Positions 37,937 through 42,714 of a stretch of 64,000 bases of DNA are shown here, piece by piece (position 1 is the first letter of the stretch; each line of letters starts with the position of its first letter). A program made the translations under genes and the position numbers. This stretch comes from Erythrobacter oryzae (GTDB lineage Bacteria; Pseudomonadota; Alphaproteobacteria; Sphingomonadales; Sphingomonadaceae). The notes under the pieces were generated by a model. That model did not search any database and had not been told where the DNA came from. It saw nothing but the letters and a program-made list of their open reading frames with translations. The stretch covers positions 124,001 to 188,000 of the forward strand of contig NZ_JASCXI010000004.1 in the NCBI RefSeq assembly GCF_030271515.1. Reading direction: 5' to 3'.

Positions 37937-38047
37937 GCAACTGGTCTAACCCCACTGCGCACCGCGCGCAAGCCTCCCTACCGGCTGGCCGGGTCGGGCA
38001 CGGCGCGCCCTTGACACCGGCAAGGCCGCACTCCGATACTCCCGTCC

Positions 38048-38662
38048 ATGCTGCTGCCCGCCGTGATCATCGACGATTTCCTCGGAGCCGACGCGGCGGG
38101 AGACCTGCTCGCCTTCGCGCTGGCGCATGAGGCGGATTTTGTGCCGTCGGAAGTCGGGTCGGAGGGCGATCAGGTGGTCAAGCCAGAGACCCGCAACTCG
38201 CTGTCCTTCGAGGGCGATCTCGGCGAGGTCATCGCCCCCTTCGCCGCCGCGGTCGCGCGCGAGGCGGCCAAGCTCAAGGCGGCGACCGGCTGCGGCGATT
38301 TCGGCCCCGATCTCACCGATCTGGAACTGGTCGCGCATTGCGACGGGCACCGCTTTCGCCGCCATGTCGACACGGCGACCGGGGCCAGCCGGATGCTCGG
38401 TCCGGCGGACCGGGTGTTGAGCCTCGTCTATTACCTCCACGCCAAGCCCAAGGTGTTTTCGGGCGGCGATCTGGTAATGCACGCGCTGGTCGGAGAGGAA
38501 CGCCGGGTTATCGCGCCGCGCCACGACCGGCTGGTGGCCTTCCCCTCGATCGCCCCGCACCAGGTCGCGCCGATCAGCCTGCCGGGCAACCGCTTTGCCG
38601 ACGCGCGCTTTTCGCTGGTGTGCTGGCTTGGGCGCGAACGGGCCGGCGCACCGGCGGCTTAG
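38048..38662 (+). CDS. 2OG-Fe(II) oxygenase (prolyl-4-hydroxylase-like)
   Basis: 204 residues. Double-stranded beta-helix enzyme with iron ligands visible as HVD (HRFRRHVDTATG, about residues 104-106) and a distal His in APHQVAPI near 178; the 2-oxoglutarate-binding basic residue follows in RFADARFSL. It would hydroxylate a protein or small molecule using O2 and 2-oxoglutarate. The N-terminus VIIDDFL is typical of the group. Its stop interlocks with the convergent cysS stop (TTAG). Confidence 0.82.
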   Translation: MLLPAVIIDDFLGADAAGDLLAFALAHEADFVPSEVGSEGDQVVKPETRNSLSFEGDLGEVIAPFAAAVAREAAKLKAATGCGDFGPDLTDLELVAHCDGHRFRRHVDTATGASRMLGPADRVLSLVYYLHAKPKVFSGGDLVMHALVGEERRVIAPRHDRLVAFPSIAPHQVAPISLPGNRFADARFSLVCWLGRERAGAPAA

Positions 38663-40176
38663 CCGAGCTTCCACTCCCACCCGAGCGGATCGCCGTCCAT
38701 CACCTCGACGCCCTGCGCGGCGAGTTCGTCGCGGATCGCGTCGGAGGCGGCAAAGTCCTTGGCAGCGCGGGCTTCCTTGCGGCGGGCGAGAGCGGCTTCG
38801 ATTTCGTCCTCGGTAATGGTCGCGCCCTTGGGGCGGATGCGCAGGTCGGCGCGGGTGAGGCTGAACAGGTTCGTGCCGAGAACGGAGTCCATTGCCGTCG
38901 CCAGTCGCCCTTTCTTTTCAACGTCGACCTTTTTGGCCGCCAGCACGTCGTCGAACGCCGTCAGCGCAACCGCCGTATTGAGGTCGTCCCCCATCGCCGC
39001 ATCGAACTTGTCGAGCATCGGCTGCAACTTACCCCAATCGTCACCCTGAACTTGTTTCAGGGTCCATCCGTCCGCAAGCGCCGGCGTTTGAGGCGTGATG
39101 GATGCTGAACCAAGTTCAGCATGACGAGCCCTGATAGCCTCGACCGCCATCACCATTCGCTTCAACCGCGTCAGCGCCGCGCCCAATCCCTCCCACGAGA
39201 ACTCCAGCTCGGAGCGATAATGCGCCTGCAAGCACATCAGCCGGTACGCCAGCGGGTGGTAGCCCCGGTCGATCAGCAATTGCAGCCGCAGGAACTCGCC
39301 CGAGGACTTCGACATCTTGCCCGAGCGTTCCACGAGGAAGTTGTTGTGCATCCAGATCTTGGCGCCCGAATTCCTCGGGTCGTCCAGCCCATTGGTGCAG
39401 CAATGCGCCTGGTTCTGCGCGATTTCGTTCGGATGATGGATCTCGCGGTGGTCGATCCCGCCGGTGTGGATGTCGAAGGGAAAGCCCAGCACTTCTCCGC
39501 TCATCACCGAGCATTCGAGATGCCAGCCCGGAGCGCCCCGCCCCCACGGCGAATCCCATTCCATCTGCCGCGTCTCACCGGGAGGCGTCTTGCGCCAGAT
39601 CGCAAAGTCGGCGGCGTTGCGCTTGCCCTCGACCGCCTCGATCCGGCCCTCGCCTTCCTCGGTCTGCGCGCGCGCCAGCCGGCCGTAGTCCGCGACGGTC
39701 GAGACGTCGAAATAGAGCCCGCTCTCCAGCTCGTAGCAGTGCTTGTCCGCGATGCCCTTGGCGAATTCGATCATCTGCGGGACGTAGTCGGTCGCGACCG
39801 TCCACTGCGCCGGCTGGCGGATGTTAAGGCTGCGCACATCGGCCCAATAGGCCTGCTTGTAGTGCTCGGCGATGTCCCAGATGGATTGCGCCTGCGCCGC
39901 CGCCATCTTCTCCATCTTGTCCTCGCCGTCATCTGCATCGTCGGTCAGGTGGCCGACATCGGTGATGTTGATGACGTGGGTGAGCTTAAGCCCCTTCCAG
40001 CTCAGCGTGCGGCCCAGCACATCGGCAAACACATAGGCGCGCATGTTGCCGATATGCGGGTAGTTGTAGACCGTCGGCCCGCAAGTATAGACGCGCGCCT
40101 CGCCCGGGTGGACGGGCTCGAACACCTCGAGCGAGCGGGTGAGCGAGTTGAACAGCTTCAAAGGCGCGTCGGTCAT
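38659..40176 (-). CDS. cysS: Cysteine--tRNA ligase with in-frame repeat insertion
   Basis: 505 residues. Zinc Cys32 in YTCGPTVYNYP, HIGH-type HIGN at 41-44, zinc-site Cys/His further on (WHLECSVMS, GGIDHREIHHPNE), and KMSKS in RSGKMSKSSGEF. Attaches Cys to tRNA(Cys). Residues 351-379, between the helices LKRMVMAVEAIRA and DKFDAAMGDDLNTA, are encoded by an 87-base palindromic repeat and have no counterpart in typical CysS; in E. coli the equivalent place is a variable surface loop. The reading frame remains intact, so the enzyme is probably functional. Confidence 0.93.
   Translation of the reverse strand: MTDAPLKLFNSLTRSLEVFEPVHPGEARVYTCGPTVYNYPHIGNMRAYVFADVLGRTLSWKGLKLTHVINITDVGHLTDDADDGEDKMEKMAAAQAQSIWDIAEHYKQAYWADVRSLNIRQPAQWTVATDYVPQMIEFAKGIADKHCYELESGLYFDVSTVADYGRLARAQTEEGEGRIEAVEGKRNAADFAIWRKTPPGETRQMEWDSPWGRGAPGWHLECSVMSGEVLGFPFDIHTGGIDHREIHHPNEIAQNQAHCCTNGLDDPRNSGAKIWMHNNFLVERSGKMSKSSGEFLRLQLLIDRGYHPLAYRLMCLQAHYRSELEFSWEGLGAALTRLKRMVMAVEAIRARHAELGSASITPQTPALADGWTLKQVQGDDWGKLQPMLDKFDAAMGDDLNTAVALTAFDDVLAAKKVDVEKKGRLATAMDSVLGTNLFSLTRADLRIRPKGATITEDEIEAALARRKEARAAKDFAASDAIRDELAAQGVEVMDGDPLGWEWKLG
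39040..39126. repeat. 87-bp palindromic repeat inside cysS
   Basis: The element has terminal inverted sequences GTCA-CC-CTGAACTTG and CAAGTTCAG-CA-TGAC. Inner hairpins are ACCCTGAA/TTCAGGGT (39043-39063) and the perfect ATGCTGAAC/GTTCAGCAT (39102-39122); CCATC and GATGG pair between them. Its 87 bases are 29 codons in the cysS frame with no stop. Style recalls the Rickettsia palindromic elements known inside genes. Confidence 0.85.
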
Positions 40177-40216
40177 GGGCGCGCTTTGGCCAGAGGCGGT
40201 GCGTCCGTCAATTCTC

Positions 40217-40879
40217 TCAGTCGAACCCGATAAACTTCACATGCTCTTCCAGCGGCACGCGCTCGCGGGCGAAATTGTTCACCGGCGCCTCGGGGTCGCG
40301 GTAGCCGATCGCCATGCCGCAAAAGAACATGTAGCGCTCGTGATCGAGGCCGAGGAACTCGCGGATCGTGTGCGCGAAGATCGCCATGTATTCCTGGAAG
40401 CAGCTGTCGAGCCCCTCCTCGCGCAGCAGCAGCGCGACGGTCTGGAGCCACATCCCCACATCCGACCACTGCGGCTCCTTCATCAGGCGCGGGAAATAGA
40501 CGAACAGCACCGCGGGCGCATCGAAGCTGGTGGTATTGCGGCCCATCGCCGCCATGCGCCCCGCGCCGTCATCGCGGGCGATCCCCATCGCGCCGAACAT
40601 CCCGGCCGAGACCGCGTCGAGCCGCTTCTTGTAGGCTTCCTCGGTGCCCGGAGCAGCCCAGTCATACTCGGCCGCCTTGGGCCCCTCGGCCATCATCTTG
40701 GCCTGCAGGTCCTTCAATGGCTGGCCGGTGACGATGCTCGCTTCCCACGGCTGGTAATTGCATCCCGAGGCCGCCCAGCGCGCCTTGTCCATCACGCGGG
40801 TAAGCGTTGCGAGATCGACCGGCTTGTCGAGAAAAGCACGGATCGAGCGGCGGGTGGTGACGGCTTCGGTGACGTTCAT
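40217..40879 (-). CDS. Nitroreductase family protein
   Basis: 220 residues. FMN-binding N-terminus [15 protein letters not shown] (residues 8-22), [20 protein letters not shown] near 33-52, and C-terminal [33 protein letters not shown], all typical of NAD(P)H-dependent flavin nitroreductases. The physiological substrate is unknown. It is downstream of cobT with a 4-base overlap. The BluB form (dimethylbenzimidazole synthase) was considered and does not fit. Confidence 0.88.
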
Positions 40880-42714
40880 TTTCTTTTGGGCCCCTTCTCA
40901 TCCTCGAACAGTTCGGCGAGCTGCTCCATGATCGTGCCGCCGAGCTGCTCCACGTCCATGATCGTCACCGCGCGGCGATAATAGCGCGTGACATCGTGGC
41001 CGATGCCGATGGCGACCAGCTGGACGGGCGAAACCTTCTCGATCCACTCGATCACGCCGCGCAGGTGTGCTTCCAGATAGCCCGCCGAGTTCACCGACAG
41101 GGTCGAATCGTCCACCGGCGCGCCGTCGGAGATCACCATCAGGATGCGGCGTTCCTCGGGGCGGTAGAGCAGGCGGCTGTGCGCCCAGATCAGCGCCTCG
41201 CCGTCGATGTTTTCCTTGAGCAGCCCCTCGCGCATCATCAGCCCGAGATTGCGGCGCGCGCGGCGCCAGGGCTCGTCGGCCTGCTTGTAGATGATGTGCC
41301 TGAGGTCGTTGAGGCGCCCGGGGTTCTGCGGCTTGCCATCGGCGAGCCACGCCTCGCGGCTCTGGCCGCCCTTCCACGCGCGGGTGGTGAAGCCGAGGAT
41401 CTCGGTCTTGACCCCGCAGCGCTCGAGCGTGCGCGCCAGAATGTCGGCGCTGATCGCGGCGATGGAGATCGGACGGCCCCTCATCGAGCCCGAATTGTCG
41501 ATCAAGAGCGTGACGATCGTGTCCTTAAACTCGACGTCGCGCTCGACCTTGTAGGACAGCGCGGTGCCGGGCGAGATAATCACCCGTGCGAGACGCGCAG
41601 CGTCGAGCACGCCCTCTTCCTGATCGAAGTCCCAGCTGCGGTTCTGCTGCGCCATCAGGCGGCGCTGCAAGCGGTTGGCGAGGCGCGTCACCACGCCCTG
41701 CAGGCCGGTTAGCTGGCTATCGAGATAGGCGCGCAGGCGATCCAGTTCCTCGGAATCGCACAGGTCGGGGGCGGCGACTTCCTCGTCGAAGCGGGTGGTG
41801 AAGGCCTTGTAGTCGACGCTGGCGGGCACCTCGGCCTGCGGGCGGTTGGGGCGCACCGGAGCATTGGCGGCGTCGCTGTCGTCGCTAGGCTCGCCCTCGG
41901 CCATGTCGCTGTCGGTTTCGGTGTCGGTGGATTCCTCCCCCTCGCCCTCGCCTTCGGCCATGTCGCCGGCCATTTCGGCGGACTGCGGGTCGCCCTCACC
42001 CTGATTGTCGTCGTCGCCCTGATCGTCGTCGCTCGGGGCGTCGTCGTCATCCGCGTCGTCGGAGTCGCTTTCGTCGGGGGCTTCGGTCGGGCGGGTCAGA
42101 TCGAGCTCGCGCAGCATGTCGAGCGCGAGCTTCTGGAAGGCCTCCTGATCGCCGATCTTCTCGGCCAGCCCGGCAAAATCGCCGCCGACCTTCTCCTCGA
42201 GGAAGTCGCGCACCAGCTCGATCCCGCCCTGCGCCTTTTGCGGCACGGCCTCGCCGGTCAGCGCCTCGCGCACCAGCAGCGCGAGTGCGGTCTGCAAGGG
42301 GACTTCGGAGGAATTCTGCGCGCGCACAATCTTGTCGCCCGCGGTGCGCAGCTCGGTCGCGGCGTCGAGATTGGCGCGGATACCGCCGAAACGGTTCGCG
42401 CCCAGCGCCTCGTAACGCACCTGCTCGATCGCGTCGTAGCAGGCGCGCGCGATGGGCTCGGGCGGCGCGGATCTTGCGTGGAGCGCGGCGTCGTGGTGGC
42501 GCAGCTTGAGCGCGAAGCTATCGGCAAAGCCGCGCGCCTCGCGCACCTGATCGGCGGGCAGGTCGCGGCCCGGCAGGGGCACTCGGAAGCGGTTGCCCGC
42601 GCTGCCGGGCACATCCGCGCTCCACGCGACCTCGACCTCCGCATCGCGCGCAATCGCCCGCGACGCGCCGGTGAGCGCCTGCTTGAACAGATCGAGCGGG
42701 GACTGGTCAGCCAT
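40876..42714 (-). CDS. cobT: Cobaltochelatase CobT-like protein with VWA domain
   Basis: 612 residues. N-terminal CobT region (about 1-200), an extended acidic segment (about 215-285) consisting largely of Asp, Glu, Gly and Ser, and a C-terminal VWA domain with the MIDAS motif DNSGS ([14 protein letters not shown], about residue 410). CobT and the AAA+ protein CobS form the chaperone part of aerobic cobaltochelatase with CobN. Neither cobS nor cobN is in the window. It overlaps the nitroreductase gene by 4 bases. Confidence 0.87.

Follow-up and report, generated by a model that had tools for sequence, protein, structure and literature searches.

A CGTC-REP dimer in frame in cysS of Erythrobacter oryzae, its conserved arms, and GIY-YIG nucleases as candidate partners of its repeat family

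The cysS gene and its in-frame REP dimer

The window analyzed here, a 64,000-nucleotide stretch of the Erythrobacter oryzae genome (3.56 Mb, 7 contigs), carries on its reverse strand a cysS gene (38659..40176) coding for a cysteinyl-tRNA synthetase of 505 residues (TIGR00435, 363.3 bits against a cut-off of 340; PF01406). Within this gene, at 39040..39126 of the same strand, lies an in-frame inverted CGTC-REP dimer with its tags outward, corresponding to CysS residues 351-379. Read in the sense of cysS, from 39126 to 39040, the insert consists of 87 bases or 29 whole codons (RHAELGSAS...KQVQGD) and is free of stops; the remaining two sense frames contain stops, and the cysS frame is the only one open through both arms. 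The left arm in the cysS sense (39097..39126, reverse strand) is the REP unit CGTCATGCTGAACTTGGTTCAGCATCCATC, here termed GC type, the right arm (39040..39069, reverse strand) is the unit GGATGGACCCTGAAACAAGTTCAGGGTGAC, termed CC type, and between them is a variable spacer of 27 bases (39070..39096, reverse strand). The arms, 30 bases each, are inverted and imperfect copies of one another, and each is itself a hairpin with a CGTC tag, a stem (AYSCTGAA/TTCAGSRT), a 5-base loop, and a CCA tail; the GACG tag of the right arm ends at 39039, and the unit from CGTC to GACG spans 88 bases (39126-39039). The strand of the insert folds at -50.9 kcal/mol (z = -7.7), a value matched by none of 200 shuffles. 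An earlier note on this DNA had claimed an exact, stop-free palindromic element of 29 codons at these residues, and coordinates, frame, and fold all agree with it. A known RNA family was considered for this region and set aside, with no Rfam match at E<=1 across 38000-41000.

The catalytic domain (PF01406) covers CysS residues 18-332 by Pfam profile, and DALR_2 starts at residue 389, with a match just under the Pfam cut-off, so that the insert falls between them. An AlphaFold2 model of CysS built from 63 sequences (mean pLDDT 78.0, middling confidence) agrees with solved CysRS structures, and places the insert between two helices (328-357 and 382-396); pLDDT falls under 50 at residues 359-370. 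On a plain reading of the model, the insert would be a loosely ordered loop, and its predicted position between two helices is the one that had been proposed for it.

Inserts of this kind, CGTC REPs inside genes, are already known. The CGTC superfamily as defined in PMC3733652 (Di Nocera, De Gregorio, Rocco 2013) has a CGTC (or TGTC, CCTC) tag outside the stem at one end of the unit, an 8- to 9-bp stem that starts with A-T pairs, a loop of 4 to 5 bases, and a CCA tail, with an 8-bp stem and 5-base loop as the lengths of family 2. The cysS dimer has CGTC at both outer ends, outside the stem, together with an 8-bp stem, a 5-base loop, and a CCA tail; the second pair of the CC-type arm is C-G, not A-T. 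It further resembles the repeats of PMC3733652 in occurring as an inverted dimer in an alphaproteobacterial host and in its intragenic location; the same paper already reports that E. litoralis and S. alaskensis have REPs within genes for tRNA synthetases. The placement rests on tag and on stem and loop lengths, not on a published family consensus. We take the tag-outward dimer described here to be the predominant 'HH' form of PMC3733652.

Further copies of the element are present in the genome, as expected of a dispersed palindrome. A BLAST search with the 87-mer (E<=1) returned 19 rows, which correspond to cysS plus eight other places that hold complete or partial copies (rows of one place merged, and a 19-base match at E 0.5 excluded). 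The core, SCTGAACTYGTTTCAGS, has 14 exact occurrences, one of them in cysS, against none for a reversed control pattern. Two 90-base copies outside cysS (L002 and L003) would encode a peptide closely resembling the cysS segment, such as RHAELVSASILPQAQTARAEKWTLKQVQGD in L002, so that the peptide comes with the element itself. Matches to the insert query outside cysS were also seen in other Sphingomonadales (L211, L221, and L226).

The genomic repetition takes mainly the form of inverted dimers. Among 189 cores of 16 genomes (G281 and one lone core of G015 excluded), neighbor pairs within 600 bases include 74 with tags outward and none with tags inward, with a spacing of 62 in 32 of the 74 (corresponding to the 90-base element, counted as for the 87) and of 374 in six. 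In Croceibacterium soli (G281), 29 tag-outward and 27 tag-inward pairs occur among 100 listed of 216 cores, and the tag-outward dimer is thus not the sole arrangement. As a separate observation, this genome, from which L165 comes, has with 216 the most REP-A cores of the genomes counted, in alternating rows of tag-outward and tag-inward pairs. Counts of REP-A and REP-B cores come from search patterns of unequal strictness, and are not comparable as rates.

The earlier note also drew a parallel with the palindromic elements that sit within Rickettsia genes. The likeness holds, in that both are palindromes in frame within genes, and cysS is intact in relatives lacking the insert (68 of 86 same-genus genes; see below), but the parallel was understated: PMC3733652 assigns RPE-4 and RPE-6 of R. 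conorii to this very CGTC superfamily, a kinship that stands by that classification and not by sequence comparison. Unlike the Rickettsia elements, the repeats of the E. oryzae genome include only one copy seen inside a recognizable gene, that of cysS, as read by stop-to-stop frames without formal annotation.

GIY-YIG nuclease genes between inverted repeats

CGTC repeats are described in PMC3733652 as seemingly without a dedicated transposase and not associated with transposase genes; they are found mostly in Alphaproteobacteria, and that they are going extinct is offered as one possibility. REPINs and REPtrons, built from GTAG REPs, are likewise short inverted REP dimers with a REP-flanked nuclease or transposase gene. 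Their tag is GTAG and their enzyme a Y1/HUH (RAYT) transposase, whereas the tag here is CGTC and the REP-flanked enzyme is GIY-YIG. A RAYT was considered as the mobilizer and rejected, since the E. oryzae genome has no Y1_Tnp (PF01797) match at E<=1, and hence no REP-flanked RAYT gene of the REPtron kind at that threshold; PF01797 was found in 10 of 14 control genomes.

The same genome has three GIY-YIG (PF01541) matches above the Pfam cut-off, one in a 680-codon frame and two in stand-alone genes. Both stand-alone genes, L050:1390-1792 on contig 2 and L051:1424-1829 on contig 6, are enclosed by inverted palindromes with CGTC tags, the family differing between the two loci, and the nuclease gene of L050 is bounded by two copies of the cysS REP family. 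We sampled 119 stand-alone GIY-YIG loci, including these two, from places listed in 61 genus genomes (a contig-end fragment excluded), and scored inverted repeats within 200 bases on each side, with shifted windows as controls. Inverted repeats flank 104 of the 119 loci at a score of at least 14, and 97 of the 119 at a score of 16, compared with 0 of 467 controls; class-wide, with 30 loci from 30 genomes, they flank 16 at score 14 and 15 at score 16 (controls, 0/162). The remaining 15 genus loci and 14 class loci have no flanking repeats at score 14. Because 26 of the 104 positive genus loci have no [CT]GTC[ACG] near the outer end of the arm, the partnership is broader than the CGTC REPs. At one locus of the class-wide sample (L251, from a 1.4-Mb genome) the GIY-YIG gene lies between long palindromes starting TGTCATCC, with a resemblance to rickettsial palindromic elements.

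The nucleases also track the repeats by sequence. With a match defined as the closest nuclease belonging to the same REP family, 33 of the 35 distinct sites show agreement of nuclease clade and REP family, compared with a mean of 7.2 and a maximum of 20 in 10,000 shuffles. This comparison derives from 92 genus loci first read, of which 84 were positive at score 14; the match segment was readable in 77 of these, and a REP family could be given to 76. The 76 reduce to 38 distinct surroundings, with one locus taken from each, and 35 of the 38 belong to families represented at two or more sites. REP family patterns were drawn up from arm sequences after some of the proteins had been seen, and three of the 38 clusters are of mixed family. 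The 35-site test supersedes an earlier one that gave 24/24 but had just 13 distinct surroundings.

Two settings show repeats with and without the nuclease gene. The gap between ruvA and ruvB is empty in G016, holds a REP dimer in G017, and holds a REP-GIY-REP arrangement in G000, G029, G034, and G064; two others (G061 and G003) have REP-GIY-REP upstream of ruvB, with the ruvA end not located, and others among the loci read upstream of ruvB (30 in all) have REP remnants or unrelated sequence. Genome G079 has a dispersed repeat in eleven copies (L354-L364), ten of which have a REP-C left arm and then a GIY-YIG gene at one fixed point (three of these ten run off contig ends); the eleventh is a bare 28-base palindrome.

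The flanking of GIY-YIG genes by these repeats, and the match of nuclease clade to REP family, are new here. Among the literature matches listed, none connects GIY-YIG genes of bacteria with REP repeats, judging by titles, the opening of abstracts, and term counts; GIY-YIG combined with 'repetitive extragenic palindromic' gave no match, nor did GIY-YIG with 'REP sequences' and 'transposase.' The term 'giy-yig' occurs 0 times in the sections of PMC3733652 consulted, and these hold no account of family exchange at one codon or of arm freezing within a gene; one table of clade-specific genes in PMC9465073 includes both a GIY-YIG gene and a RAYT gene.

Stand-alone GIY-YIG homing endonucleases are known as a class. 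The genes described here share with them the PF01541 domain and an embedding in a putative mobile unit, and differ in being intergenic and bounded by inverted REP palindromes. From the association, the clade matching, and the one shared insertion site, we propose the GIY-YIG nuclease as a candidate mobilizer of CGTC REPs; its small gene is a likely partner in their spread, one that had been missing until now. A nuclease of the matching clade would cut DNA at or for its REP family, and repair of the break would copy the element into it, in the manner of homing. However, very similar traces would be expected of a nuclease that does no more than invade REP dimers, and the clade matching weighs equally for both, as it fits a nuclease invading the dimers as well as one spreading them.

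The GIY-YIG gene could be a parasite of REP dimers, a family-specific homing nuclease that inserts into the spacer, with the REPs themselves spread by other means or now immobile. This is compatible with a nuclease situated between the arms and specific to the family, and with the copies in G079 that have the left arm and then the gene at one point alongside one that is palindrome only. Dimers also outnumber nuclease-bearing units, with 60 tag-outward pairs in the 16 genomes less than 100 bases apart against the six at spacing 374. Nonetheless, it offers no enzyme to move the REPs in a genome that has no Y1 transposase match, and the preference of short dimers for one length, spacing 62, is what would be expected of a mobilized unit. 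We consider this parasitism rather unlikely.

Presence and conservation of the insert among relatives

A segment of CysS was matched in 107 of 114 same-genus genomes, and the gene was read in 87 of the 107, mostly the best-scoring, to give 86 usable reading frames. The insert is patchily distributed among these genes: 13 have an insert of this REP family (type A; spacer 27 or 30 bases), one is eroded (G133), four have an insert of another kind (type B), and 68 have neither. The insert types of G106 and G133 were assigned by reading their sequences. The earlier note's inference of an in-frame insertion of a dispersed palindrome is thus borne out, since many close relatives have no counterpart of residues 351-379 and the genome has further copies. 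Type B is another CGTC-REP family (LPGAGRDP...GPGLRRGD), in frame in the same cysS gap (L030, L097, L098, and L099, of G028, G107, G115, and G102, respectively), and two different REP families thus occupy one gap in different species. With type B, the gap is bounded by GAx TGG GGx AAx, as it is in most type A genes of the genus. Genes of types A and B are intermixed on the cysS tree, which serves to show this intermixing only, as branch support was not assessed; the cysS gene of G000, for example, is 94.3 percent identical to the type B gene of G107 outside the insert. Given this scatter, loss, exchange, gene transfer, and repeated insertion are poorly told apart.

A scan of named genomes, some of which overlap the genus set, extends this distribution, with Erythrobacter colymbi, E. 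sanguineus, Alteriqipengyuania abyssalis, Croceibacterium soli, Novosphingobium lentum, and a Sphingorhabdus MAG among the genomes concerned. In the best 80 of 127 relatives, 77 of which are cysS genes, 25 cysS genes have both type A arms, four have type B, one has the right arm only (L185), and one looks eroded (L182). Spacers appear alike by descent across genera, for example ISDPDPWVRDDG in G072 and MSDPEPWVRDEG in L171.

At the DNA level the two arms have stayed almost unchanged across several Sphingomonadales genera, which is also new here. Among the 13 type A species of the genus, the difference at fourfold sites is 0.072 in the arms (58/801 pairwise) and 0.367 in the rest of cysS; among the four type B species it is 0/87 versus 0.322. 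For 29 non-identical species of the genus set and the named genomes together, taken from 32 with recognizable arms after dropping L161, L183, and L185 (odd length or a lost arm), the arms differ at 0.124 and the rest of the gene at 0.418, a value for the arms that no window of equal size elsewhere in cysS reaches at fourfold sites (0 of 425). The nucleotide difference of the arms in these 29 species (0.063) is under that of every cysS window (minimum, 0.089), compared with 0.520 for the spacer, and the flanks diverge too. All 29 have a GC-type left arm and a CC-type right arm; together with the shared-looking spacers, this constancy means that replacement of whole dimers does not account for the sameness of the arms. 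The earlier note regarded the insert as a selfish repeat tolerated as peptide. A dispersed repeat in frame it is, but arms near-frozen at synonymous sites are unlike ordinary coding sequence.

Conversion from other copies was considered as the means of arm upkeep and rejected. It predicted that eroded arms go with an absence of other copies; G133, with eroded arms, has one REP-A core, but G079 and G026, with three each (cysS included), keep arms that are intact or nearly so. In three of 19 aligned species the left stem has a double, synonymous change that keeps a pair, and few cores of the three genomes have the changed left arm (1 of 10 in G282, 1 of 18 in G279, and 2 of the 100 listed of 216 in G281), although three CC-type cores of G279 share the pair change. 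Because genomes with few cores keep their arms and the changed left arm is rare outside cysS, conversion from other copies is not relied on here.

With moderate confidence, we favor a joint explanation in which cysS carries an old CGTC-REP dimer, a short, nuclease-less form of a REP/GIY-YIG nuclease/REP element, whose arms are kept via DNA or RNA. The dimer would have entered cysS in frame, at the loop between two helices, before the split of the genera compared, and would since have been inherited by descent, with loss, erosion, or a swap for another family in some lineages. Its arms would be maintained by a DNA or RNA process and not through the peptide, either by hairpin-templated correction or by selection on the hairpins.

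Alternatively, the insert may have a host function, with hairpins in the message (acting in stability, pausing, or processing) or in the DNA under selection and keeping the arms. The near-frozen synonymous sites would fit, as would arm hairpins with 98.4 percent of stem cells paired (19 species) and the pair changed on both sides in three of the 19, in genomes where the variant left arm is rare elsewhere. But changes on both sides are not above chance in the covariation test of the arm hairpins (one pair, reached by 247 of 500 shuffles), the arm sequence is a REP core found elsewhere in the genomes, type B arms have different sequences at the same place, and 68 of 86 relatives lack both inserts, if not necessarily every hairpin, at that place. 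We think such a function improbable. Pairing across the two arms was also considered as a conserved structure and dropped, with 97.1 percent paired and covariation not above shuffles.

The cysS gap could instead be a hot spot that has received many independent recent REP insertions, the arms being alike because they are young. The two REP families in one gap, the interleaving of types A and B, and right flanks that differ strongly between genera are what it would predict. It is hard to reconcile with spacers and a genus flank (WGKL) that look shared by descent in species whose cysS genes differ by at least 23 percent at fourfold sites, or with the GC-left, CC-right order in 29 of 29 species, though flipped dimers can be open in frame (L002 and L003); the E. 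oryzae cysS element, if flipped, has one stop, in the spacer. Recent insertion at a hot spot thus seems rather doubtful to us. That the segment is an ordinary variable loop, repeat-like by chance, has a negligible probability: the cysS loop is variable in the genus generally, but the hairpin at z = -7.7, the 14 exact cores against 0 for the control, and the frozen synonymous sites refute it.

The interest of these observations goes beyond the insert alone, to the frozen arms and to a nuclease that tracks the repeats. A nuclease situated inside the repeats and following their sequence is a direct and testable candidate enzyme for CGTC REPs, and would also bear on the in-frame insertion of palindromes in Rickettsia genes. 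Tentatively, and at a little under an even chance in our estimate, the alphaproteobacterial CGTC REPs, perhaps including RPE-4 and RPE-6, may be short forms of mobile elements driven by stand-alone GIY-YIG nucleases, each REP family having a nuclease clade of its own. If so, this would be a second system of REP mobilization, unrelated to the RAYT transposases, and the cysS insert would be a long-lived in-gene copy with arms kept at the DNA level. The arms, a stretch of the gene for an essential enzyme that differs less at fourfold sites than any of 425 other windows, offer a clean system for separating hairpin-templated correction from selection. We note, finally, that the cysS inserts of L182, L185, L183, L167, and L161 are eroded-looking, one-armed, or lengthened, and may represent stages of decay.
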